Source of the DNA: Candidatus Moraniibacteriota bacterium | GTDB lineage: Bacteria; Patescibacteriota; Minisyncoccia; Moranbacterales; UBA1568 | Length of the DNA: 56,939 bases | Assembly: GCA_018499985.2 (NCBI GenBank) | Contig: JAHBAT020000007.1 | Coordinates: 1 to 56,939, forward strand | Direction of reading: 5' to 3' | The notes under the pieces: generated by a model | What the model was told of the DNA's origin: nothing | The model's input: the letters and a program-made list of their open reading frames with translations, nothing else | Database searches by the model: none | Shown here: in pieces, positions 15,403 to 44,490 of the stretch | Numbering within the stretch: the stretch's first letter is position 1 | How the letters are laid out: each line of letters opens with the position of its first letter | Translations under genes and position numbers: made by a program

Positions 15403-15479
15403 GGACCGGTAGCTCAGCTGGTTAGAGCGCTCGCCTGTCACGCGAGAGGTCGCGGGTTCGAATCCCGTCCGGTCCGCCA
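15403..15479 (+). tRNA. tRNA-Asp (GTC) with encoded CCA
   Basis: Acceptor GGACCGG/CCGGTCC, anticodon GTC in CTCGC/GCGAG, T-arm CGGG-TTCGAAT-CCCG, discriminator G and encoded CCA at 15477-15479. It is the only tRNA in the window with encoded CCA. The 3' end is the left attachment core of the island, and the CCA appears to come from the element. Confidence 0.97.
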
Positions 15480-17000
15480 TTCGGTACAAGCAGTCCCAAA
15501 AGGGGCTGTTTTTGTTTTAGTAGATACCCCTAAGGGTGGTTCGAAGGTGCCCATTTTGGCCGTTACGCTTTCTACATCTTCTTGGAGCCATGAAAAAGGC
15601 TCATTGAGGTTAAAGTAAGCGATATTTCGGTCTTGAATAGCAAAGTTCGAAGATATGAGACCGGCTACCTCTCGACGGAGGTGCGGATCAGCATTTTGGA
15701 AAATATCGTGAGCACTTTTTACAAAATGAATAATCTGATCGAGGTCAGCCAGTACACTCTCTGATTTCTTGGCTCTGCCCGTGAGACGTTCTTCGAGCGT
15801 GCTTTCTTCTTTGGTTATCTCGCTCAGTTTCTTTTCATAGATACTCTTCGGGATAGAATTGTCGATGTATTTCTCAATCAAAGAATCTTTGCGGATAGCT
15901 ACTTCACTAAGAAGCTTCTTCACTTCTTCTTTCGATGTGCTCTCGTGTTCTTCTAGGTGGAGATACTTTTCTTTGGCAGCGTCTACGATGAGTTCAAGTA
16001 CCTCATCATCAAACTGAATCTTCTTGAGCTCCTCTTCTATCTTCTCTGTCAGTATCTCCTCTCGGAGGTAGGGCTGTGAGCATGCTTTAGTGCCACGTGA
16101 CTTCGTACAGCGGTAGTACGTGTGACCCTTGCTCGTCTCTGCTGTTATCTTTAGCCCACACTCTCCGCAAAGAGCGAGGCCACGAAAGAGAAAGAAATGA
16201 TCATCGGCTCGGGTGAGCTGTTGGCTGGCAGGGGCGAGGCTTTTTCTAGCTTCCTCGAAAAGCGACTTTGATACAAGGGGAGTGTGCACTCCTTTGTGGA
16301 CTTCACCATTCCATTCAAAGAGTCCGCAGTAGAGCGGGTTAGAAAGTATGCGTTGTAGTCTCGCATGATTAACCTTCTTCCCTCGTACAGAGCGAAAGCC
16401 ATCCTCGTAGAGCTTGTCAGATATCTTTCGTATCGACCACCGCTTGGTGGCGTAGAGTTGGAAAGCCTCGCGGATGTAGGGGGCAATCTTTGGATCAATC
16501 TTGAGAAACTTCGTTTTGGGGTCAATGGTATATCCCAAGACATGATTGCCTGGATATTCTCCGCGTCTCACTTTAGCAGCGAGGCCTCGCTTTACATTGT
16601 TACTCAGGTCTCGTACGTACTGATTAGCAATACTAAACTCAATGCTCGCTATCACTACATTATCTTCTGGATTGTAGTCTCTATCAAACGTCTTGATGCG
16701 TTTGATGGTGTTGTTCTGAAGAAGCCACTTGATAGCTCCCTCGTCTACTGGGTTACGAGCGAGGCGGTCAATCTTCCAGCAGAGTATTCCTTCTGCTTTG
16801 CCTTGTTCGATATATTTCATCATCTCGGCAAAGACAGGGCGGCCTGGGGCTTTGGCAGATTTGGCCTCTTGAAAAACTTTCACCACGTCGAGCTTCTCTC
16901 GCTTGGCTATTTCTTCCATCTCTATAATCTGTGATTGGATAGACAAAGACTGTCTGTCTTCACTCTCACTCGATTTTCTGGCGTAGATAATATACCTCAT
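15438..17000 (-). CDS. Large serine recombinase (probable integrase) whose end is antisense tRNA-Asp
   Basis: 520 residues in the integrated form. The N-terminal resolvase domain begins MRYIIYARKSSESEDRQSLS with the catalytic Ser in RKSSE, then DRLARN. A recombinase domain follows (about residues 165-260), then a zinc ribbon (CGECGLKI...YYRCTKSRGTKAC) and a long coiled coil (about 340-440). The final residues WRTGRDSNPRPLA and the TGA stop are encoded by the antisense strand of tRNA-Asp. In the predicted circle the frame would instead continue LPGIQAEWIPSINFSS to a TGA at 44394-44396, giving about 539 residues. Its position at attL points to a role in integration and excision. Confidence 0.9.
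   Translation of the reverse strand: MRYIIYARKSSESEDRQSLSIQSQIIEMEEIAKREKLDVVKVFQEAKSAKAPGRPVFAEMMKYIEQGKAEGILCWKIDRLARNPVDEGAIKWLLQNNTIKRIKTFDRDYNPEDNVVIASIEFSIANQYVRDLSNNVKRGLAAKVRRGEYPGNHVLGYTIDPKTKFLKIDPKIAPYIREAFQLYATKRWSIRKISDKLYEDGFRSVRGKKVNHARLQRILSNPLYCGLFEWNGEVHKGVHTPLVSKSLFEEARKSLAPASQQLTRADDHFFLFRGLALCGECGLKITAETSKGHTYYRCTKSRGTKACSQPYLREEILTEKIEEELKKIQFDDEVLELIVDAAKEKYLHLEEHESTSKEEVKKLLSEVAIRKDSLIEKYIDNSIPKSIYEKKLSEITKEESTLEERLTGRAKKSESVLADLDQIIHFVKSAHDIFQNADPHLRREVAGLISSNFAIQDRNIAYFNLNEPFSWLQEDVESVTAKMGTFEPPLGVSTKTKTAPFGTACTEWRTGRDSNPRPLA
15461..15477. repeat. Left attachment core (attL)
   Basis: 17-nt sequence aatcccgtccggtccgc covering the T-stem 3' strand, acceptor 3' strand and discriminator of tRNA-Asp. 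It is repeated exactly, in the same orientation, at 44474-44490. Confidence 0.8.
15491..15516 (+). terminator. Terminator after tRNA-Asp, supplied by the element
   Basis: CAGTCCC-AAAA-GGGGCTG then TTTTTGTTTT, starting 12 bases after the tRNA. It lies inside the recombinase coding region on the opposite strand, so the element brings its own stop signal for tRNA transcription. Confidence 0.75.
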
Positions 17001-17151
17001 ACTCCTAAGAGAAAATAGCGATCAGTACGAAAATGAGGAGTATGAACAAAAGATAGCCGATGATGGCTTCGAGTGGCCACTCCCACAGGGGAGGCATACC
17101 TTTGTATTTTGGAGAACGCATACGAGCAATAATAAAAGGACGACCTCGCTT

Positions 17152-17950
17152 GCACACAACCTCTTCTCAGAAGATGTAGCGAAAGTCGCCCTTTCACGAG
17201 AACAATTGCCAAAAAACAATTGCTCTTCTTCTGAGAAATTAAGTTGTGTGCTCTAGTAGTATAGCGAATTTCTCGTATCTTTTCCATTGCCTTTTTTGTC
17301 TTTATTTTCCTGTCACCCCTCCGCTCATGTCGCTTCCACTCCCTTTGGGCTCTGCCCAAACCTGGCTTCAAGAGCCAGGCGAGCTTCGGGGTTCTATCGG
17401 TCAGGGCTCGCGAGTGCCTCTTCCTTTTTTTAGTCTCTACTCTCGCCCTGTCTTTCTTGTCCAGGCTCCCTTCACGGCTTTCTTTGGTACCAGAGCCAAG
17501 TCCCATACCACCTCGAGGAGGCACCCCTTTCCTCGGGTGGTATGAGACACCCCCCTTTGTCCAAGCATCGCATAAGTGCCACCGTGCTTAGGCGACATCC
17601 GCTGTGCTCCTTTCGCCTAATCAGCACTTATGCAACGCATGTCCTAAAGGGGGATGGGCTCTGGTGCTCCTTACGCCGTTTTGCGGTCGCCAGTCTTTCT
17701 TCCTAGTCTCCTATCAGTTGTCCGGGCTCTATATCATCTCTTCCTCGTTCGTAGTCTGTGCTTCGCCCGGGCAGCCATTCTCATTTCCCCTTATGGCACT
17801 CTGTGTGGCTCGCAGAGCCTCGCCACACCTCGTCGCCATATCTTTTCCTCAAGAGAGCTTCTATCGCTTCGCACGCTTCGATTTCTGATCTCTTTCGTTC
17901 TTGTCGACTTCGTCGTACGAAACGGATTTTCTCTTTCTCGTTTTTAATTT
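17152..17950 (-). ncRNA. Candidate large structured non-coding RNA
   Basis: About 800 bases without a convincing protein. It is pyrimidine-rich on the plus strand (purine-rich, GNRA/GAAA-like loops on minus) and more GC-rich than its surroundings. Strong inverted repeats: 17152-17160/17243-17251 with 17164-17174/17227-17237; 17344-17350/17354-17360; 17361-17367/17373-17379; 17504-17518/17531-17544; three nested stems 17551-17558/17646-17653, 17570-17579/17624-17633, 17588-17595/17613-17620; 17803-17809/17822-17828. AAGGAGCAC occurs twice on the minus strand. Size, density of stems and position beside an integrase and tRNAs recall GOLLD/ROOL-type phage RNAs, but family membership cannot be tested here. 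Confidence 0.5.
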
Positions 17951-17968
17951 TCGATAGACCGATTCTAC

Positions 17969-17980
17969 TTACTTAAGTAA
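17969..17980. promoter_or_regulatory. Palindromic operator TTACTTAAGTAA
   Basis: Perfect 12-bp palindrome lying just upstream of a minus-strand -10-like TAGAAT (17962-17967), placed to control transcription into the structured tract. It shares the ACTTACTT/AAGTAAGT motif with 18017-18048 and with the start region near 18470. Confidence 0.4.
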
Positions 17981-18016
17981 TTTCTTATCTATTCGAAGAG
18001 AAAAGAAAAGTTTTCG

Positions 18017-18048
18017 AAAAGATAAGTAAGTATACTTACTTATCTTTT
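18017..18048. promoter_or_regulatory. Perfect 32-bp palindrome (operator or terminator)
   Basis: Every base from 18017 to 18048 pairs with its mirror position; the core is AAGTAAGTATACTTACTT. It overlaps the stop codon of the gene ending at 18036. The flanking A/T runs could make it a bidirectional terminator; the shared core motif suggests protein binding instead. Confidence 0.6.
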
Positions 18049-18317
18049 CTTTTTGCTACTTTTTCTTTTACAGAAGAAGCAGCTAACTTGGCAAAACGAA
18101 AATTGAAATACCTTTGATAGGCAGGGCAATTCATAAACTTCCCATTGTGGCAAAATTCCTCCTCACCCTTGATTAAGGTAGGATAGACCGCCTCTTTTCC
18201 CTCTTTTGGCTTAGGGGTGCACTGCCAGAGTTTGATAGCCAGGAGAGGGCAATTCATTCTATCTAAAATAGCATTAGTCAATGCTTCATTTGCGTTTCGA
18301 ATTTCTTCTCTGTTCAT
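18036..18317 (-). CDS. Small Cys-containing hypothetical protein
   Basis: 93 residues from ATG 18317, which has AAAGGAGG 8 bases upstream; two ATGs and a GTG closer to that site are in frame. Cysteines at MNCPLLAIKLWQC and FCHNGKFMNCPAYQRYF could bind metal or an iron-sulfur cluster. The C-terminus is Lys-rich. It overlaps the upstream small gene by about 30 bases, so translation is probably coupled. No known family recognised. Confidence 0.65.
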   Translation of the reverse strand: MNREEIRNANEALTNAILDRMNCPLLAIKLWQCTPKPKEGKEAVYPTLIKGEEEFCHNGKFMNCPAYQRYFNFRFAKLAASSVKEKVAKRKDK

Positions 18318-18468
18318 ATTCATCACCTCCTTTCAGTGCCAAAAGGCCAAGTCTGGCTAGGCGATCAAGAAGTATATCTACTTCTTCAGCAGAGATTGCT
18401 TTTCCAGCTCTTTGCGAAAAAACTTGTTGAGCTCGTTCGATAAGTTGTGGAGAGAAGTTAGTACTCAT
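18286..18468 (-). CDS. Small helical hypothetical protein
   Basis: 60 residues (MSTNFSPQLIERAQQVFSQR...ISAEEVDILLDRLARLGLL...), predicted to be two or three helices with a basic tail, a type seen in mobile regions of Patescibacteria. It is the first gene of a minus-strand pair with the gene ending at 18036. TAAGTAAGT lies just upstream of the start, matching the palindromic motifs at 17969 and 18017, so it or its partner may be autoregulated. Function unknown. Confidence 0.6.
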   Translation of the reverse strand: MSTNFSPQLIERAQQVFSQRAGKAISAEEVDILLDRLARLGLLALKGGDEYEQRRNSKRK

Positions 18469-18557
18469 AAGTAAGTACCTACAACTATATAAAAAATCAA
18501 AAACACACCCTCATTGAAGGTGTATTTCGAAGAGCACTTCCCTTTATTTATAGGATT

Positions 18558-19742: not shown

Positions 19743-22700
19743 ATGACCACAATTACAAATACTGGAGAGAATACCTTATCAGCAAAACTAAAGATAGTTT
19801 TACCGAATTGCGATCGTGTTGATGCACTTGTCGGGTACTTTTATTTTTCTGGTTTTCGTGACCTTCATAATGAGTTGGAAGATAAGATGATTCGTATTCT
19901 TGTCGGTATGGATATTGACAAGAGAATTATCGAGAAAATTTCTTCTTTTGAAGATCTTAATCTTGATGAATTTGAGACTGGTACACGAATAACTACTCGT
20001 TCTGGCGCAAAAACAGAGTATATTGAAAACTTTTCTAAAATTTTTAATGACACTGACTATTTCGATAACGAAGAGTCTCAGAAAGCATTTGAAATTTTCT
20101 TAAGTAAAATTCAAGATGGTAGCTTGCAAATAAAAAAGACAGCACAAGCGGACCACTCGAAGTTTTATATTTTGCACAATAAACCAGAGTACTCTGAAAA
20201 TGGTGAGAAACCCGGGATTGTTATTGAAGGATCAAGTAACCTTACTCATTCAGGTCTTAAAGGGCAGCGTGAACGTAACCGAATGTTGATTGAAAAGCAT
20301 TATTATAATGAAGATGTAGAAGCCTTTAATGCAGCTTGGGATGATCCGAATAACATTATCATTACTGATATTGAAACTTCAGACGAGTTTATTGTAGAAG
20401 TTAAAAAACGTATTTGGCTCTATCAGCTTCCTGACCCACAATTGATGTATTATCGTGTACTTGATGAATACTTTTCAGTCGAAGAAATTGAAGACGTTAA
20501 AACTCCGCGACAGATTACGGGTGAGAAGTTTTCTGATCTCAAGTATCAGACCGATGCTGTAAATCTCGGTATAGATCGTATCAAACGTTTCGGCGGTGTG
20601 ATTATTGCTGATGTTGTTGGTTTGGGTAAGAGTATTATTGCTTCTACAATTGCTCACAATCTTGACTTGAAAACAATTATGATTGTTCCGCCACATCTTG
20701 AATCACAGTGGAAGGACTATTATTCGGAGTTTAATTTTAATGGACACGTTTATACTACTGGTAAGATTGAAGAGGCGCTCAATCGCCATGGTGATGAAAA
20801 GGATTTATTAATTGTTTTAGACGAAGCCCATAAGCATCGAAACGAAGACACGGACAATTACAAAAACTTACATAAACTTTGTGCCGGTAACTATGTTATG
20901 GCACTTTCTGCCACGCCATTTAATAATGATCCAAAAGATATTTACGCACTCATCAAGCTTTTTAGTACCCCGGGCCAATCAACTATCAAAACTGTTGAAA
21001 ACCTAAGCATATCCTTTCATGATCTATTTAAGCGATACAAGAACATTCGTCGAGATATACGAAAAAGTGCTAAGCAGGCGAGTCTTGATGGTTCTTCTGA
21101 AGTAGCAATTGAGTTGCACGCCATTGCTGGTGAATTACGTAAGATGATTGAACCATTAGTCATTCGTCGTTCTCGCCTTGATCTTGAGCAGATTGAGGAC
21201 TATAAGCGGGATCTTGAGCAGCAGGGTGTGGCATTTGCAAAGGTCAAGGATCCAGAGCTGCTCGAATATGATCTTGGTGAACTTGCACCATTATATGTCG
21301 AGACACTTAACCAGATTTCTTCACCTGATGATTCAGATAGCTTTGAAGGGGTGCGTTACAAACCGGCGAGTTATATTAAGGCTGGTTCAAGATTTATCAA
21401 AGATTTGATTGATGCAGAAGATGATGAAGAAAGTGATGTCTCTCCAGAGGAGAAGATACAACGTATAACTCAGGCGCAGGCAAACGTTGCAAGATTCATG
21501 CGACGATTGCTCGTGCGTCGCTTTGAGAGCTCTATTGGTTCATTTCGTTCATCTTTGGAAAATATGATTCGATCATCAGAAACGATGCTCGATTGGTATG
21601 AAAACAAAAATGTTGTACCAATTTTCAAAAAGGGTTCACTTCCTACAACACAGGAATTGGAAGATCGGGTTGAGGCGGGTGAAGATATGGAAGATATACT
21701 TTCCCGACTTAAAGATAAGGGTTTGATAAATATTCCGGTTGCAGAAATGCAACCACAATTCAAAGATGCTCTCAAGAAAGATATTGCCCTTTTGAAAGAT
21801 GTGCAATCCAAGTGGCAGTCAGTCATAGAAGATCCGAAGTTTGATTTTTTTAAAGACAAGATAACAACTTCTCTGAAAAATGAACCGCAGCGCAAACTTA
21901 TTGTTTTCACTGAATTCTCAGATACAGCAAATTATGTCTACGATAGACTTGTTAAAGCGGGTCTTTCTCGTATCTATAAATACAGCTCAGAAGATGCTTC
22001 GAAAGAAAATAAGGAGATTATTCAGAGAAACTTTGATGCAGGACTTGATCCATCAAAACAAGTTGATGATTATGACGTCATTATTGCTACAGACGCTATT
22101 TCAGAAGGCTTTAATCTCCATCGTGCGGGTGCGGTTATCAATTATGACATTCCATATAACCCTACGCGTGTTATCCAGCGAGTGGGTCGTATCAACCGTA
22201 TTAACAAGAAAGTTTTTGAGGAGCTATATATTTTTAATTTTTTCCCTACAACAACTGGTGAAGTCGAGACTCGCACAAAAGCTATTTCCACTCTCAAGAT
22301 GGATCTCATTCATTCATTGCTTGGTGAAGATACAAAGATTTTCACGAAAGATGAAGATTTACGTAACTACTTTGCTAAACAATATAAGGAGGAGCAAGTA
22401 AAAAATGAAAGTCTATCTTGGGATGCTAAATATCGAGATGAGTGGATGAAGTTCAAAAATAATCCAGATATCAGAAAACAAATTGCTGCTATACCACATC
22501 GTGCGCGTATTGCCCGGAAGTTTGCTATAAAAGGAGTTGTTGCATTTGCAAAACGTAATGGTAATTTTGTTTTTGCATTTGGTAAGACGCCGGAAGAAGT
22601 TCAGATAGTTGCTCCGGAGATTGCTTTGCCGCTGTTTAATGATGTAACACCAGGTGAGAAAGCATTTGAGACTACGGCGAATTTTGAACCAATCTATAAA

Positions 22701-23042
22701 ATTGCCAAAGAACATATTTTCAAAGACAATACCAAGCCACCAGTTAGTGGTCGCCGTAAGCAAGATGCTCTTAATAAGCTTAAGTTTATTGGCGATAACT
22801 ATGCTCCAGCAAAAGATCTTTGTGTTGATATTATCCGCACCGTTAAGGATCTTGATGGTTTACCAAATGGTGTCCTCAGAGAAATTGCTGATTTGAGATT
22901 AGACAAGGAAGATCTTAGTAAGGCATTTTCTGAACTGAAAGAACTGGTACCACAAAAGTATCTGTCGAGTATTTTTGAAACAGCTGAGCGAGCAAACGAT
23001 AGTGGTAAGTTAATAGTGCTCTCTGAAGAGCTAACCGTATGA
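19743..23042 (+). CDS. Phospholipase-D-type nuclease fused to SF2 (SNF2-like) helicase
   Basis: 1099 residues. The N-terminal ~200 residues form a PLD-like nuclease domain with one HKD-type motif (DHSKFYIL...IVIEGSSNLTHSGL). The SF2 helicase follows: Walker A VVGLGKSI near residue 290, DEAH near 359, SATPFNN, and the C-terminal lobe with VFTEFSD, ATDAISEGFNL and QRVGRINR. Long insertions between the lobes are charged. Such chains are the motor and cleavage subunits of ATP-dependent restriction systems. It overlaps the next gene by 4 bases (ATGA), so the two products are likely made together and act as one complex. Confidence 0.85.
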   Translation: MTTITNTGENTLSAKLKIVLPNCDRVDALVGYFYFSGFRDLHNELEDKMIRILVGMDIDKRIIEKISSFEDLNLDEFETGTRITTRSGAKTEYIENFSKIFNDTDYFDNEESQKAFEIFLSKIQDGSLQIKKTAQADHSKFYILHNKPEYSENGEKPGIVIEGSSNLTHSGLKGQRERNRMLIEKHYYNEDVEAFNAAWDDPNNIIITDIETSDEFIVEVKKRIWLYQLPDPQLMYYRVLDEYFSVEEIEDVKTPRQITGEKFSDLKYQTDAVNLGIDRIKRFGGVIIADVVGLGKSIIASTIAHNLDLKTIMIVPPHLESQWKDYYSEFNFNGHVYTTGKIEEALNRHGDEKDLLIVLDEAHKHRNEDTDNYKNLHKLCAGNYVMALSATPFNNDPKDIYALIKLFSTPGQSTIKTVENLSISFHDLFKRYKNIRRDIRKSAKQASLDGSSEVAIELHAIAGELRKMIEPLVIRRSRLDLEQIEDYKRDLEQQGVAFAKVKDPELLEYDLGELAPLYVETLNQISSPDDSDSFEGVRYKPASYIKAGSRFIKDLIDAEDDEESDVSPEEKIQRITQAQANVARFMRRLLVRRFESSIGSFRSSLENMIRSSETMLDWYENKNVVPIFKKGSLPTTQELEDRVEAGEDMEDILSRLKDKGLINIPVAEMQPQFKDALKKDIALLKDVQSKWQSVIEDPKFDFFKDKITTSLKNEPQRKLIVFTEFSDTANYVYDRLVKAGLSRIYKYSSEDASKENKEIIQRNFDAGLDPSKQVDDYDVIIATDAISEGFNLHRAGAVINYDIPYNPTRVIQRVGRINRINKKVFEELYIFNFFPTTTGEVETRTKAISTLKMDLIHSLLGEDTKIFTKDEDLRNYFAKQYKEEQVKNESLSWDAKYRDEWMKFKNNPDIRKQIAAIPHRARIARKFAIKGVVAFAKRNGNFVFAFGKTPEEVQIVAPEIALPLFNDVTPGEKAFETTANFEPIYKIAKEHIFKDNTKPPVSGRRKQDALNKLKFIGDNYAPAKDLCVDIIRTVKDLDGLPNGVLREIADLRLDKEDLSKAFSELKELVPQKYLSSIFETAERANDSGKLIVLSEELTV

Positions 23043-26000
23043 TGAGATTTGATGAAAAGTACAATCGTAGCGCATTTTGTGATTTTCTAAAGGAATTTTT
23101 GCCTGAAGATTATACAGAAAAAGAAAAAGATATAGCAGAAGTTGATAAATGTAAGATTATTACCCAGGCAAAGGAACTTGGTTATTCAGAGTCACTTGAT
23201 GTGTATGTCTTAGAAATGACACACGCTAAAGATACCGATCCACGTGTTGCTATTGCCACTGATGCGTTTCGTACTCTTGCTAATTACGGTATAGACAAAG
23301 CGTTGGTGATTTTCAAGAACGATGATTCGGATAATTATCGATTTTCATATCTCACCATCACACTCAATCTTAACGATAAAAATAAAATTGTCCGTAGATA
23401 TTCTAACGCTCGACGCTACTCGTTTTATCTAGGTACAGGCGCAAAAGTAAAAACCCCGGAGCAGCAGCTCTTCAAGAAGGGTAAAGTCAAGAATCAAGAA
23501 GATTTACTGTCTAGATTTTCGGTGGAAGTGGTTAACAAACAATTCTACCTTGAGATAGCTAATTATTTTGACGAACTGACTGATGGTGAGAAGGATAATT
23601 TGTTATTACCAGGCGTTTCCCAAGAAGATAGTAGTACCCGCAAGAGTTTTGCTGTTAGACTTATTGGTCGTATTATGTTTTGTTGGTTTCTTAAGCATAA
23701 GAAGTCTAGTGAAGGGCAGTTGATTCCTGACGGACTTCTTTCATCAGTGGTGGTAACAAAAAATTATTATCACAGTATTTTAGAGCCCCTTTTCTTTGGA
23801 ATTTTAAATACTAGCATAGAACATCGTGATATTCGTGGTGCAGTCTTTGATAAAGTGCCGTATCTTAATGGAGGTCTCTTTAATCCTCAATCAGAAGATT
23901 TCTACGAGCTAGATAGGACAACATTCATGTCTAAACACATGAATACTTTGAAGATTAGCCACGATTGGTTTAAGAGTTTTTTTGAATTACTTGAAACATA
24001 CAACTTTACAATTGATGAAAACACGATATTTGACCAAGAGCTTTCGGTGGATCCAGAGATGCTGGGGCGCATATTTGAAAATCTCTTAGCAGAAATTAAT
24101 CCTGAGACTGGCAGTAGTGAACGTAAGCGTACTGGAAGTTATTACACACCACGACAGATAGTAGAGTATATGGTTGATCAGTCACTTACAGAGTATTTAA
24201 AGACGAAGACTAGTATAGAAGAAATTAAAATAAGAGCACTGCTAAGTTATGATTTAGATGATGATTTAGAATTTCCGCTCACAGAAGATGACAAAGTATC
24301 GGTAGTAAAAGCTATAGATGAGCTTAAGATACTTGACCCAGCTTGTGGCTCAGGTGCTTACCCTATAGGAGTTTTACAGAAAATAGTTTATGTTCTTCAG
24401 CAGATAGATCCAGAGTGTAAACTTTGGTTAGATGAAAAGCTTAAGCTTATTCCAGAAATGTATAGGCAAAAAATTATTAATGAAGTCCAGTCTAACCCTT
24501 TTGACTATACTCGTAAACTGGAGGTAATCAAAAACTCTATTTTTGGGGTAGACATCCAGCCTATCGCAGTAGATGTCTCTCGTTTGAGGTGTTTTCTTAC
24601 TTTGGTAGTAGAAGCAGAAATTAAAGATACAGAGCCAAATAGAGGCATAGAACCTCTTCCAAACTTAGATTTCAAGTTTGTTTGTGCCAATACTTTGATT
24701 CCAGCACCGGAACAAGTAGATACAGAGTCCGGAGCTCTCTTTGGTGACAATTTTCAGGAAAAATTAGCTGTAGCAGTGGATAAGTACTTTTCATCTTCTG
24801 GTGAAAACAAGCGTTTAGCTAATAATGAAATCCACAAACTTATCGATGGAAAAGTAGATGAGAAATTACTCTATCTTAGAAGCCTCACCAGTTATCATGG
24901 AGATGAAAAATTTGAAAAGGCTCTTGCTATCAGCAATAAGAAAAAAATAGACGAACAATCTAGATCACTTGCTCTGTGGGGGAGTTACAAGAATATATTT
25001 GAGAATAAACCTGTAGGGTTCTTTGATCCGAAGTATTTTTTTCCTAGTATTAAAGATGGATTTGATATTGTAATTGGGAATCCGCCTTATAATGTTAAGC
25101 TTTTGGAACATGAAAAAAAGTTTTACAAAACTAATTATGTAAGCGTTCGGTCTGGCAGGCAAGATACGGCGGCTATTTTTGTTGAAGCGGCAAAGAAATT
25201 TAGTAATAGTAGCTTTATTATTTCTTTTATTATTCCGTACAGACTCTTCTCTCGAAAGAGAAATCATGGTGCTTTTCAGGAGTATGTTTTGAAACATCTT
25301 TCGATAAATGAAATTGTTTACTTGGGAAAAGATGCCGGGTTTGATTCGGCAAGTGATGAGTTTATGATGGTTTTATTTGAGAGAGCTGATCCATTCAATA
25401 AAATAAGAATATGCAGTAAGCCAGAGTTAAATAAGTTAAATAACCTTATTTTTACAGAAATAAGTCAGAATTTATTTGAAAAAAATAATGAAATAAATAT
25501 AAATAGCAGTAAATTTAATATAGATATCTTATCTAAGATAGAAACTGCTGGCCCTAGATTGTCTGAGATTTGTCATGTGAAAGATGGGATAGTTCCTTAT
25601 ATTAGAGAAAAAATGATAAATCAAGAAAAAATTGATGAAAGGTATGTGAAGTTTGCAGGAGTCTCAGGGGCATATAAATTAGATAGGTACAATTTTGTAG
25701 CAAAACCTATGTACCTGTGCTATGACTTAAATGAGGCAAAGAAATATATAACTAGTATAGATGAGCTAAGAAAGGTTCAGTTGAGAGATAAGGAAATATT
25801 TTTACAGCCAGAGAAAATAATAACGTCCCAGAATAGTGCTATTCTCAAGGGGACAATTGATAGAGATCAATATTTTGTCTCTAACTCAATACACAGCACT
25901 TTTTTGAGAGAGGAGTATAAAGATCAGTATTCGCTTGTTTTTATCTTAGCCTGTATTAATTCTCCGGTACTGAACTATTACTACAACTCTAAGAGACTTA

Positions 26001-26245
26001 AGGGGGTAGACCTGCATCCGCAGATATTAATAACTACCCTTAAACTTCTCCCTGTGCCTAAAGTAGAGGAAAAAAATAGATCAAAACTGAGTAGACTGGA
26101 AACTTTAGTGAACCAGGTGTTAGAAATAAAAAAAGAAAGTCTAGACTCTGATACTACTGCTATTGAACATCAGATTAATCAGCTAGTTTATGAATTTTAC
26201 AATCTCACTGAAGAGGAAATTAAAATCATTGAGAATGTAGCTTAG
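23039..26245 (+). CDS. Eco57I-type adenine methyltransferase with specificity region
   Basis: 1068 residues. An N-terminal region (1-~350) may be structural or nuclease-like. The gamma-class N6-adenine methyltransferase core has SAM motif LDPACGSGAYP near residue 431 and catalytic NPPYN near 680. From about residue 830 a likely target recognition domain follows (RLSEICHVKDGI...), ending with NSPVLNYYY and a helical tail (SRLETLVNQVLEIKK), as in type IIG and type I-like enzymes. Overlap with the helicase gene implies a two-subunit ATP-dependent restriction-modification or DISARM/type ISP-like system. Target sequence unknown. Confidence 0.85.
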   Translation: MMRFDEKYNRSAFCDFLKEFLPEDYTEKEKDIAEVDKCKIITQAKELGYSESLDVYVLEMTHAKDTDPRVAIATDAFRTLANYGIDKALVIFKNDDSDNYRFSYLTITLNLNDKNKIVRRYSNARRYSFYLGTGAKVKTPEQQLFKKGKVKNQEDLLSRFSVEVVNKQFYLEIANYFDELTDGEKDNLLLPGVSQEDSSTRKSFAVRLIGRIMFCWFLKHKKSSEGQLIPDGLLSSVVVTKNYYHSILEPLFFGILNTSIEHRDIRGAVFDKVPYLNGGLFNPQSEDFYELDRTTFMSKHMNTLKISHDWFKSFFELLETYNFTIDENTIFDQELSVDPEMLGRIFENLLAEINPETGSSERKRTGSYYTPRQIVEYMVDQSLTEYLKTKTSIEEIKIRALLSYDLDDDLEFPLTEDDKVSVVKAIDELKILDPACGSGAYPIGVLQKIVYVLQQIDPECKLWLDEKLKLIPEMYRQKIINEVQSNPFDYTRKLEVIKNSIFGVDIQPIAVDVSRLRCFLTLVVEAEIKDTEPNRGIEPLPNLDFKFVCANTLIPAPEQVDTESGALFGDNFQEKLAVAVDKYFSSSGENKRLANNEIHKLIDGKVDEKLLYLRSLTSYHGDEKFEKALAISNKKKIDEQSRSLALWGSYKNIFENKPVGFFDPKYFFPSIKDGFDIVIGNPPYNVKLLEHEKKFYKTNYVSVRSGRQDTAAIFVEAAKKFSNSSFIISFIIPYRLFSRKRNHGAFQEYVLKHLSINEIVYLGKDAGFDSASDEFMMVLFERADPFNKIRICSKPELNKLNNLIFTEISQNLFEKNNEININSSKFNIDILSKIETAGPRLSEICHVKDGIVPYIREKMINQEKIDERYVKFAGVSGAYKLDRYNFVAKPMYLCYDLNEAKKYITSIDELRKVQLRDKEIFLQPEKIITSQNSAILKGTIDRDQYFVSNSIHSTFLREEYKDQYSLVFILACINSPVLNYYYNSKRLKGVDLHPQILITTLKLLPVPKVEEKNRSKLSRLETLVNQVLEIKKESLDSDTTAIEHQINQLVYEFYNLTEEEIKIIENVA

Positions 26246-34805: not shown

Positions 34806-35013
34806 ATAATTGTTGCTAAGGATTATTTAATTATGTATCAAATCTAGATTTTTAAGGTACACAAAGGGCCCCACAATCCGGCGGTAACCTTTCGATCACC
34901 CAGTAGCTCTTTCGAGTACTGACCTTAGCAACAAGTACCGGCTGTGAGGCCGTTTCTGTTGCTAAGGATTTATTGCGCCATGCTCACATTTCTATGAGTT
35001 TAGGCTGGATTGT
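34806..35013 (-). promoter_or_regulatory. Switch-like structured 5' leader (riboswitch candidate)
   Basis: Leader between the promoter and the ATG at 34805. On the minus strand CCTTAGCAAC (34967-34958), GTTGCTAAGG (34932-34923) and CCTTAGCAAC again (34821-34812) occur in that order. The central copy can pair perfectly with either side, and the last copy ends 6 nt before the start codon. Further helices: CAGTACTC-GAAA-GAGCTACTG, GGTGA/TTACC, GGC-CTCACA-GCC, CTCA/TGAG, and long-range CAATCC/GGATTG that closes the domain. This is the architecture of an RNA switch controlling translation; no known class is recognised. Confidence 0.65.
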
Positions 35014-35073: not shown

Positions 35074-36393
35074 TCATCTTTTTAGGGTTATTTGCTTATT
35101 GGCTAGATATATTCTGCTTTTCAAACATCCAAGAATTTCTCTTTTTTCTTCATTTGAGCCTTCTTTGAGTACATACTTCGCATATCCTCGAATATCAACA
35201 CCTTTTGCATCCACCTTATCTTTTGTCCCTAGAAAGAATTTCTCCATTTTAGAGAATCTTTCTATATCCTCTGAAATTTTTGATTTTAGTTCTATTTCAT
35301 TTAGATTAATCTTATCTAAAAGTTCTTCGAATTGTCTGAGAATCTCCTTTTCTTCGGTATAACCACACTTACACTGTTTATCTCTAGCTTTAGTACAACC
35401 ATAATAAATATATCTTTGAACGGAGCCATTTTTAAGTTTCTTAAATTTCTCATCAGCACATATACCTGACTCACAGAGTCCGCAGGTCATCATTTTGGTA
35501 AAAGCGAATTCTTTACCTTCAACTCGGAGTATCTGGCTTTTTACTTGTCTTTGAACCTGATCAAAAAGTTCTTTGGTAATGATTGGTTCATGCTTACCTG
35601 TATACCAATTACCAGAGTTCTTTGGATATTCAAATACACCGTAATAGAAAGTGCTTTCTAGGATTCTATAGATATTTCCTAAGCTTAGATGCTTTTTGCC
35701 ATTCGCAGTTCTAAAATTAAGTTCAAAGGTAAGCCAGTTATGTAGCTTTCTGCCACTCCATTGTTCATAGGCGACTTTTTCAAACATCTTTTTAATGACA
35801 GGGGCTCTTTCTGGATCAATAAGAGTTTCACATTTTCGATCCATCCTTTTTTCCTTCATGTAACCAGTGGGGGCTGGGTTAGGCCAGAGACCCATTTCTA
35901 CTCTAGTCCGAAGTCCTCGTTTAACATTAATACTCTTATTGTCATTTTCAAGTTTGGCCTGACTACAGAGAATCATAAGAAGAAACTTCTCATTAGGGGA
36001 GTTTTTGAATATCTGTCCGTAAGTACGTATCTCCATTAAGTGTTGCTGATCCATCAAATCTACGACACTTCCTAAATCTCCTGCATTACGAGAGAGGCGG
36101 TCAGGAGCCCAGGTGAGAATGCCGTTAAATCTGCCCCTTCTGATATCTTCTAGTATTTCTTTGTAGACTGGACGCTGACCTGACTCCTTAGCACTATGAG
36201 ACTCCCTTCTGATCTCAACTATTTCAAGGTCATCTCGTTCAGCTTGCTGAAGCATCTCTTTGATTTGAGAATCAATAGAAAGGACTTGTCGCTCTTCAGA
36301 TTCGGTTGATTTTCGGGCGTAGAGGACGTACCTGATCTTTTGGATAGGTTGGACTATCTCGTCACCAATTCGGGCTGTTGTGTGCGTTTCCAT
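35074..36393 (-). CDS. Second large serine recombinase
   Basis: 439 residues from ATG 36393 (a TTG at 36417 is possible). Resolvase domain RYVLYARKSTESEERQVLSI with catalytic Ser in RKSTE and DRLSRNAGDLG; recombinase domain (GLWPNPAPTGYMKEKRM, GRKLHNWLTFEL, STFYYGVFEY); zinc ribbon CGLCESGICADE...YYGCTKARDKQCKCG; shorter C-terminal coiled coil than the recombinase at the left end. Its stop is a normal one, not in a tRNA. It stands between the switch-leader gene and the packaging genes, and may be the integrase of a nested element or act as an accessory recombinase. Confidence 0.92.
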   Translation of the reverse strand: METHTTARIGDEIVQPIQKIRYVLYARKSTESEERQVLSIDSQIKEMLQQAERDDLEIVEIRRESHSAKESGQRPVYKEILEDIRRGRFNGILTWAPDRLSRNAGDLGSVVDLMDQQHLMEIRTYGQIFKNSPNEKFLLMILCSQAKLENDNKSINVKRGLRTRVEMGLWPNPAPTGYMKEKRMDRKCETLIDPERAPVIKKMFEKVAYEQWSGRKLHNWLTFELNFRTANGKKHLSLGNIYRILESTFYYGVFEYPKNSGNWYTGKHEPIITKELFDQVQRQVKSQILRVEGKEFAFTKMMTCGLCESGICADEKFKKLKNGSVQRYIYYGCTKARDKQCKCGYTEEKEILRQFEELLDKINLNEIELKSKISEDIERFSKMEKFFLGTKDKVDAKGVDIRGYAKYVLKEGSNEEKREILGCLKSRIYLANKQITLKR

Positions 36394-36479
36394 GTATCTA
36401 TTGATGACGCACTTCAATAGATTTGCTAAGTCTATGCAAAAACAGTGATTTATCGCATAATAGCACTTTGAAAAAAAGG

Positions 36480-37997
36480 CTATTCTACATCAACATAATC
36501 ATTGTAGTAAACAATATCGCTTTCATCGCAGTATCTTCCAACCCACATCATAAGAATAGTGCCTTCTTTCGAATGTTTTGCCATGAGGGCATTAATGAGT
36601 AATGAGAAAGCATCTGCTATATCATCGTGTTTTTCTATTCCAAATCCAATGAGTTGTTTGATGAGATCTTCACAACCTTGCTTAGGAAACTTAATTAGCC
36701 CTGACTTAATGGCTGTAGAAGTAAGGCTAAGACGTGTTCTTTTGTCACCTTTTGGTTTTATAGCAGTAGCCTTGATGCCTTCATGTTCAAGCATTTGAGG
36801 CAAGGCTTCTTGATAAGCGACACTTTCCACGAAGATTTCTCCTTCTTTTTGTTTCCGCATATGAGTTGTTGATATTTCCTTTATAAGTTCTACTTGAGCT
36901 GGGAAATTTAGTTTTTTAGAGATGACTGTAGGCAGAATATAGATTCGTAGCTTTTCAGAACGTGAATAGACATGAGCCATAACGATAGCCGTTTCATCGG
37001 CAGCTTCTTTGGATGAAATAGCTAGATCAACCCCAATATAAGTACCACGGTAACCCGGGTGATTTTCACCCGGTAAGTCATCGTAGTACTGAAGCCATTC
37101 AGGATAAATAACCTGATCGTCACTTGGGATAATACGAAGTAAGTATTCTCTTTGCCAAGATACCTCGCTTCCCACTTTTTTCTTTTCTTCTTCCAGAGCG
37201 TTCTCATCAGGGTACTTACCTTTCCAAAGACAGTAATCATTCCGATCGAGTAGGGGGTATTGCTTAAATACTCCCGAGCTACGACCTTCTACTACCTCAG
37301 TCTTTATTTTCATTAACAGAGAATCTTCATGTAAGAGGTTACCTACAATGATAAGGCGAGTATTTCTATCTCCTGTAGGGATGACTTCGCCACGGAGCCA
37401 GTTATACGTCTTTTCTCGACCTTCTCTTGTTTTGGTAGATTGTACATCTTCAACGTCATCACAAATAAGAAGGTCAGGGCGGTGCTCATTATGGCGAATA
37501 CCTCGAATACTTTGCTCTGTAGAAGCAACAGTAATGCGAGCATTGTGTTTTTTGAAGACCAAAGAGAATGATCCCCATTCGTCGCTTTCTTCTTTGAAGG
37601 GCCCAAGATCACGTTTTAAGAGCTCGTTACTTTCCAATTCGGTACGAATATTCATCATGTGCTGTTTGGCCTGTACTCTAGTTTGAGTAAAGATTACGCA
37701 GAACTTTTTTTGTTGTTTTCCGAGAATTGCCCAAAGAGGGTAAGCCGTTGTGATAATAGTAGACTTACCTGATCCACGAAAAGCCACCACATAAAGATTT
37801 TCTTTTGGATTTGATTCTAGAAGGTGAAAGAGCTCTTTCTGGAAGTCAGCTGTCTCATACTTCACATAGTGGGCGTAATAGAAGTGGAAAAAATAAAGGA
37901 AGCTTTCTTTGCTAATACTGGTACGAATTGCTCTATCTTTCATCATTTTTTTAACGAGTGATGTAGAGAGAATGTGTGCTGTTTTATTCTTAGTCAT
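36480..37997 (-). CDS. terL: Terminase large subunit
   Basis: 505 residues. The ATPase half has Walker A AFRGSGKST (residues 72-80), Walker B DLLICDDVED and a coupling-type motif IIVGNLL. The C-terminal RNase H-like nuclease half has the metal-binding IGVDLAISSKEAADET and HDDIADAFSLL. This is the packaging motor and nuclease of tailed phages. It overlaps the small-subunit gene by 4 bases and is the last gene of a minus-strand packaging operon. No portal or capsid gene follows, so the element may package with a helper's capsid. Confidence 0.9.
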   Translation of the reverse strand: MTKNKTAHILSTSLVKKMMKDRAIRTSISKESFLYFFHFYYAHYVKYETADFQKELFHLLESNPKENLYVVAFRGSGKSTIITTAYPLWAILGKQQKKFCVIFTQTRVQAKQHMMNIRTELESNELLKRDLGPFKEESDEWGSFSLVFKKHNARITVASTEQSIRGIRHNEHRPDLLICDDVEDVQSTKTREGREKTYNWLRGEVIPTGDRNTRLIIVGNLLHEDSLLMKIKTEVVEGRSSGVFKQYPLLDRNDYCLWKGKYPDENALEEEKKKVGSEVSWQREYLLRIIPSDDQVIYPEWLQYYDDLPGENHPGYRGTYIGVDLAISSKEAADETAIVMAHVYSRSEKLRIYILPTVISKKLNFPAQVELIKEISTTHMRKQKEGEIFVESVAYQEALPQMLEHEGIKATAIKPKGDKRTRLSLTSTAIKSGLIKFPKQGCEDLIKQLIGFGIEKHDDIADAFSLLINALMAKHSKEGTILMMWVGRYCDESDIVYYNDYVDVE

Positions 37998-44422: not shown

Positions 44423-44490
44423 GACGGGATGAGAAGTTTATGCTCGGTATCCATTCGGCCTGGATACCGGGTAAATCCCGTCCGGTCCGC
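44423..44490. repeat. Right attachment region (attR) with T-arm-mimic stem
   Basis: Outer stem GACGGGA (44423-44429)/TCCCGTC (44476-44482), inner 11-bp hairpin (44443-44453/44461-44471), then the 17-nt core 44474-44490 identical to the tRNA-Asp 3' end at 15461-15477. The outer stem copies the tRNA-Asp T-stem; the two scars after tRNA-Ala carry the same layout with the Ala sequence. Confidence 0.8.

Follow-up and report, generated by a model that had tools for sequence, protein, structure and literature searches.

A putative leader RNA of serine integrase genes across Patescibacteria and a separate structured RNA candidate upstream of it

A structured non-coding tract beside an integrase gene

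Given that a stem-rich tract of about 800 bases lies next to the integrase gene of a mobile element in Candidatus Moraniibacteriota, the question arises whether it encodes one large RNA, as a sequence-only reading had proposed, and whether such an RNA is kin to known large bacterial RNAs. The window, i.e., the whole stretch of DNA analysed, comprises 56,939 nucleotides from a host genome of 0.89 Mb (98.6% complete), and all RNA features described here are located inside an integrative element of ~29 kb within tRNA-Asp (Table 1).

Positions 17151-17960 fold with a minimum free energy (MFE) of -311.7 kcal/mol on the minus strand, where 40 dinucleotide shuffles give -229.1 (sd 7.0; z -11.8), and with -269.1 against -205.3 on the plus strand (z -11.5). 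The open reading frames inside the tract have no Pfam match, and a protein-coding reading was discarded on this ground. These results confirm 17128-17960 as a non-coding stretch whose folding goes far beyond that of shuffled sequence; the stems first read from the sequence, including a nested helix of about 100 bases and back-to-back hairpins, are present, and the setting beside integrase and tRNA genes is as described. Homologues were found and their structure is conserved, so that the sequence-only reading withstood the refutation test set for it. The proposal of one single large RNA did not hold, as the tract is two separate units, a leader at 17251-17128 on the minus strand and an upstream structured unit at ~17955-17290, and the start formerly set at 17152 cuts the leader, whose 3' half continues to 17128. 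A DNA search with the tract matched two order-mates over only ~43 nt at its recombinase end; two order-mates with the same short motif are recorded as Candidatus Moraniibacteriota and Bacterium BMS3Abin15. The best-supported discovery is this leader at the edge of the tract and not a giant RNA, which comes second and is less certain.

Table 1. Positions of the element's integrase end and of the RNA features in the window
Feature	Position	Strand	Remark
tRNA-Asp	15403-15479		
Attachment repeat 1 (AATCCCGTCCGGTCCGC)	15461..15477	+	17-bp exact direct repeat with 44474; 3' end of tRNA-Asp
Attachment repeat 2	44474..44490	+	Far end of element; exact 17-bp copy of repeat 1
Large serine recombinase (integrase) of the element	15438..17000	-	Pfam Resolvase, Recombinase, Zn_ribbon_recom; PHROG integrase
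Small hydrophobic-peptide ORF, ~38 aa	17005..17121	-	Between leader and recombinase
Integrase leader RNA, whole, ~120 nt	17128..17251	-	Models R1, R3 match 1-123, 1-121; covariation
P1 outer helix, 5' arm	17241..17251	-	Pairs with 17152-17162
P1 outer helix, 3' arm	17152..17162	-	
P1 inner helix	17227-17238 with 17163-17174	-	Within 17163..17238; encloses P3 and P2 5' arm
Spacer hairpin P3	17215-17226 with 17199-17210	-	Inside P1
P2 (predicted terminator) 5' arm	17178..17194	-	In P1 loop
P2 (predicted terminator) 3' arm	17135..17150	-	Directly after P1; U-rich run to 17128
Leader promoter, sigma70-like (TGGAAA-17-TATACT)	17258..17286	-	-10 position conserved
Large structured RNA candidate, ~670 nt	17290..17955 (approximate ends)	-	Folding; homologue G007; order-wide architecture
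Three-way-junction core	17489..17665	-	Same layout in relatives
Pa	17657-17665/17489-17497	-	Core helix
Pb	17646-17655/17549-17558	-	Core helix, with inner helices
Pc	17536-17548/17500-17512	-	Core helix
Nested helix of about 100 bases	17655-17549		16-bp and 8-bp inner helices
Back-to-back hairpins	17380-17360 and 17359-17345		
Possible promoter of large RNA (TAGATA-18-TAGAAT)	17962..17991	-	Consensus match only

The arrangement at the integrase end recurs in most of the close recombinase relatives, where a tRNA gene also abuts the 3' end of the recombinase gene and a short hydrophobic ORF (LLLSDSPADxPxL...) is likewise located between leader and recombinase. No clear ribosome-binding site is seen in front of the peptide ORF. 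The cargo of the element includes a helicase and Eco57I-type methylase pair, a metal-ATPase and Dsb-type genes, as well as a second recombinase and a phage-type terminase. The helicase carries a PLD-like domain and is followed by the methylase at 19743-26245 (plus strand), adjoining the RNA tract, and the pair is likely restriction-modification or defence cargo. The terminase large subunit, together with a ParB/methyltransferase-type protein (36480-37997, minus strand), suggests a prophage or phage satellite, which may be a second element lying inside the first. The second serine recombinase gene (35074-36417) is devoid of the integrase leader RNA; 68 nt downstream of it, a LOOT RNA (Rfam RF03000, 70.5 bits) is found at 34883-35006 on the minus strand.

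Conservation and covariation of the integrase leader

Upstream of the 11 closest recombinases, the same order of parts is found: a promoter, the 5' arm of P1, usually the spacer hairpin, a AAAGGGCGACCUUUGCUACA-like motif, the 3' arm of P1 and then a AGCAGGGUCGUCCUUUUGUU-like motif. Across these 11 leaders, 96.3% of the cells of P1, inner P1, the spacer hairpin and P2 are paired, and two-sided changes occur in 17 of the 36 pairs, a count that none of 500 shuffles reaches and that slid controls leave at 1-4 pairs. The helices are also kept in 23 diverged copies, with 99.1% of cells paired and two-sided changes in 7/10 pairs for P1, and 90.3% and 12/16 for P2. The outer helix of P1 is the best-conserved helix of the leader.

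Within the order, model R1 detects the leader in 15 of 118 genomes, and within the class in 12 of 383, two of the latter being chance matches; among 14 R1 matches whose surroundings were read, 12 run into a serine recombinase and two (L089 and L090) have no recombinase behind them. A further model, R3, was built without P2 and run on 379 genomes drawn across Patescibacteria, of which it matches 20, the window's own included. When 20 R3 loci outside the window were read, 17 were found to continue into a recombinase similar to that of the window and one into a serine recombinase recognised only by its N-terminal sequence (18/20 in total); two loci (L163 and L168) have no recombinase behind them. 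Because R3 did not contain P2, these loci provide an independent test of this helix, and P2 is present in all 19 testable loci across the phylum, with a mean score of 14.9 against 6.7 for shuffled sequence.

The strand of the leader is clear. When sense and antisense folds are pooled, G-U pairs outnumber A-C mismatches by 76 to 13 on the minus strand, a surplus that settles the strand and argues for RNA. The best -10-like box is situated 6-8 nt before P1 in 28 of 43 leaders, compared with 3 of 43 in a control window, and the transcript should therefore begin with P1. Together with the covariation, these observations uphold the original proposal of a minus-strand RNA leading towards the recombinase gene for 17251-17128; for the large upstream unit the minus strand is likely, with modest support.

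Among IMG/VR viral contigs no homologue was found, whether with three patterns for the leader, with one for the large RNA or by searching with a recombinase protein, and phage and plasmid records gave no meaningful match. A Novosphingobium match from the first pattern search (L037) was rejected as chance, since R3 gives none there. The best-supported reading of these sequence comparisons is that the leader would represent a phylum-wide RNA element of serine integrases.

A proposed attenuator switch and its alternatives

The 3' arm of P2 starts 0-2 nt after that of P1, so that full P1 and full P2 are mutually exclusive. Without constraint, all 11 leaders fold into P1; with the first 24 nt blocked, all 11 fold into P2 followed by the U-run, in the form of an intrinsic terminator, at a cost of about 4-17 kcal/mol. 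The P2 loop would be 25-30 nt long, which is unusual for an efficient terminator. As in attenuators, there are thus two mutually exclusive helices, of which one with its U-run resembles an intrinsic terminator, in a 5' leader between promoter and gene. We consider it quite probable that the leader acts as a transcription attenuator for the integrase gene and that the upstream tract is a separate structured RNA candidate.

In the model, transcription would start at the first base of P1, and the P1 5' arm, the spacer hairpin and the P2 5' arm would emerge before the P1 3' arm, with the P2 3' arm and the U-rich run emerging last. With P1 closed, P2 could not form and the polymerase would continue into the genes for the peptide and the recombinase; capture of the P1 5' arm by something else would let P2 form and stop transcription ahead of the recombinase. 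Read-through is probably the default state, because P1 is more stable and completes first. A trans-acting factor (protein, RNA or ligand) that captures the P1 5' arm would accordingly be expected to switch the integrase off. The complementarity of the upstream tract to the P1 5' arm is no better than that of shuffles, so the large RNA is not an obvious antisense partner and was set aside in this role. An antisense promoter opposing the leader was found neither by a consensus scan of the window nor, as an obvious one, by eye in relatives.

A different reading of the same helices is that inner P1 and P2 form together as a pseudoknot, in which case the element would be a small RNA of ~120 nt or a site bound by protein, such as the recombinase in autoregulation, and not a switch. 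The topology is H-type and, with inner P1 only, the loop lengths would be expected to permit both helices, while a promoter before P1 and a U-run after P2 could delimit a short terminated RNA. However, the outer P1 helix would have to open, although it is the most conserved of all, and the recombinase start codon, located no more than ~30 nt after the U-run in most diverged copies, points to a 5' leader more than to a free small RNA. We regard the pseudoknot as unlikely in either form. It is far less probable still that the hairpins act as DNA, be it as a recombinase operator, as attachment sites or as single-stranded DNA hairpins: they do lie at the integrase end of the element and serine recombinases bind paired half-sites, but the surplus of G-U pairs is expected for RNA and not for DNA, the attachment repeat lies at the tRNA, with the recombinase gene between it and the hairpins, and the two arms of P1 are separated by ~80 bp and located where transcription is predicted to start.

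As an attenuator, the leader would by analogy most resemble those of plasmid replication genes. The transcription attenuators of pT181 and pIP501 are controlled by antisense RNA, and in these as in the leader a long leader hairpin pre-empts, or here would pre-empt, an intrinsic terminator before a gene that controls the element; the leader differs in that it precedes an integrase gene and is unrelated in sequence, and no antisense RNA to it was found. T-box and riboswitch leaders also have two mutually exclusive helices, one of them a terminator with a U-run, directly before a gene, whereas the leader has no Rfam match and no recognised conserved ligand pocket, and its competing hairpin begins at the first base of the predicted transcript. 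The intS gene of the KplE1 prophage is described as autoregulated by the integrase protein (PMC2951348); the likeness is an integrase gene kept under tight control within an integrated element, there by the protein autoregulation described and here putatively by a conserved RNA leader.

The large upstream RNA candidate and what the pair may mean

A recognisable tract upstream of the leader is common to six loci of the order (G050, G073, G083, G086, G078 and G047), with about 61-77% identity in the longer pairwise pieces; at other leader loci, genes and not this tract are located upstream. Its ~200-nt core is a three-way junction of 58 pairs, 34 of which show two-sided changes in 8 relatives (0/500 shuffles), and 89.9% of core cells are paired, compared with 73.7% in shuffled and at most 57.1% in slid alignments. 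Model R2 of this core recovers copies outside its build set (G097, G052:C5, G045, G104, G075 and G047:C29, at 41 to 160 bits) and nothing convincing outside the order. Two core copies belong to elements at tRNA-Asn whose recombinases form another clade (about 27% identity), and two are away from any recombinase seen (G052:C2 and G116:C22), so the large RNA appears to travel independently of the leader. Of the stand-alone cores, L113 (6182-6391) has neither recombinase nor tRNA in the surrounding 13 kb, and L114 (191-388) sits at the end of a contig, about 2 kb from tRNA genes.

R2 has no significant match to the large tract of the window, its best hits falling only on an AU-rich palindrome (18007-18054). 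The Pa/Pb/Pc layout is nevertheless shared by the window and its genus-mate G007 at the same place upstream of the leader, with different helix sequences, and the window's large RNA is a probable divergent relative of the R2 family, not a proven member. Its strand is likely the minus strand, with 24 G-U pairs against 12 A-C mismatches in the helices common to both strand folds; the energy difference between sense and antisense is mostly composition, and its possible promoter is a plain consensus match, from a scan that found 2 against 1.5 expected by chance.

Between the large RNA and a small gene beyond it, a perfect 34-base palindrome (GAAAAGATAAGTAAGTA / TACTTACTTATCTTTTC) occupies 18016-18049 and further AAGTAAGTA-type repeats extend over 17970-18480; they might function as a terminator, as iterons or as a binding site. 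Several relatives (G029, G073 and G104) have similar repeats of the TACTTAC type in the corresponding position. The small gene (18036-18326, minus strand) encodes a protein with conserved Cys and CP motifs (MNCP..., FCHNGKFMNCPAYQRY) that has no Pfam or PHROG match and is situated upstream of the large RNA in most relatives.

The large tract might alternatively be hairpin-rich mobile or decaying DNA, built of MITE-like modules and with no functional RNA. The stand-alone cores fit such an origin, as do the weak strand signal and the differing lengths and outer modules among loci. The covariation of the core, the preponderance of G-U pairs in both-strand helices and the layout retained by the window and G007 despite their different helix sequences argue against it, and we hold this alternative to be possible though doubtful. 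Judging from sequence comparison, we take the tract to be a structured RNA candidate in its own right that elements of this kind carry.

GOLLD and ROOL are large structured RNAs that occur in phage-like elements next to integrase and tRNA genes (PMC12286853), and kinship with them had been considered from the location, with HEARO and group II introns named as further models to check. The likeness to GOLLD and ROOL concerns the size and the setting of the large RNA candidate, but its core is a three-way junction found in one order only, and neither the leader nor the large tract, nor their relatives, matched any Rfam model, those of these four included, at the gathering score or credibly at E<=10, which leaves an identity with GOLLD or ROOL almost no probability. 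That the large RNA serves the element, in a role like that sought for GOLLD and ROOL, would be a guess by analogy.

No description was found in the literature searched on serine-recombinase leaders, attenuation and Patescibacteria, whose incomplete coverage makes this weak evidence of novelty, nor was RNA-level control of large serine integrases found in it. Large serine integrases are widely used genome-writing tools, and ~120 nt would suffice for a direct test of the leader in vitro. With the upstream RNA, the few large ornate RNAs of bacteria gain a further candidate. It can tentatively be speculated that both belong to a paired RNA system in Patescibacteria elements, in which a phylum-wide integrase-leader switch would be joined, in Moranbacteria-type elements, by an ornate RNA that serves the element, as a new class beside GOLLD, ROOL and OLE. 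A leader kept across Patescibacteria would amount to a general rule for the restraint of integrases in the mobile elements of host-dependent bacteria.
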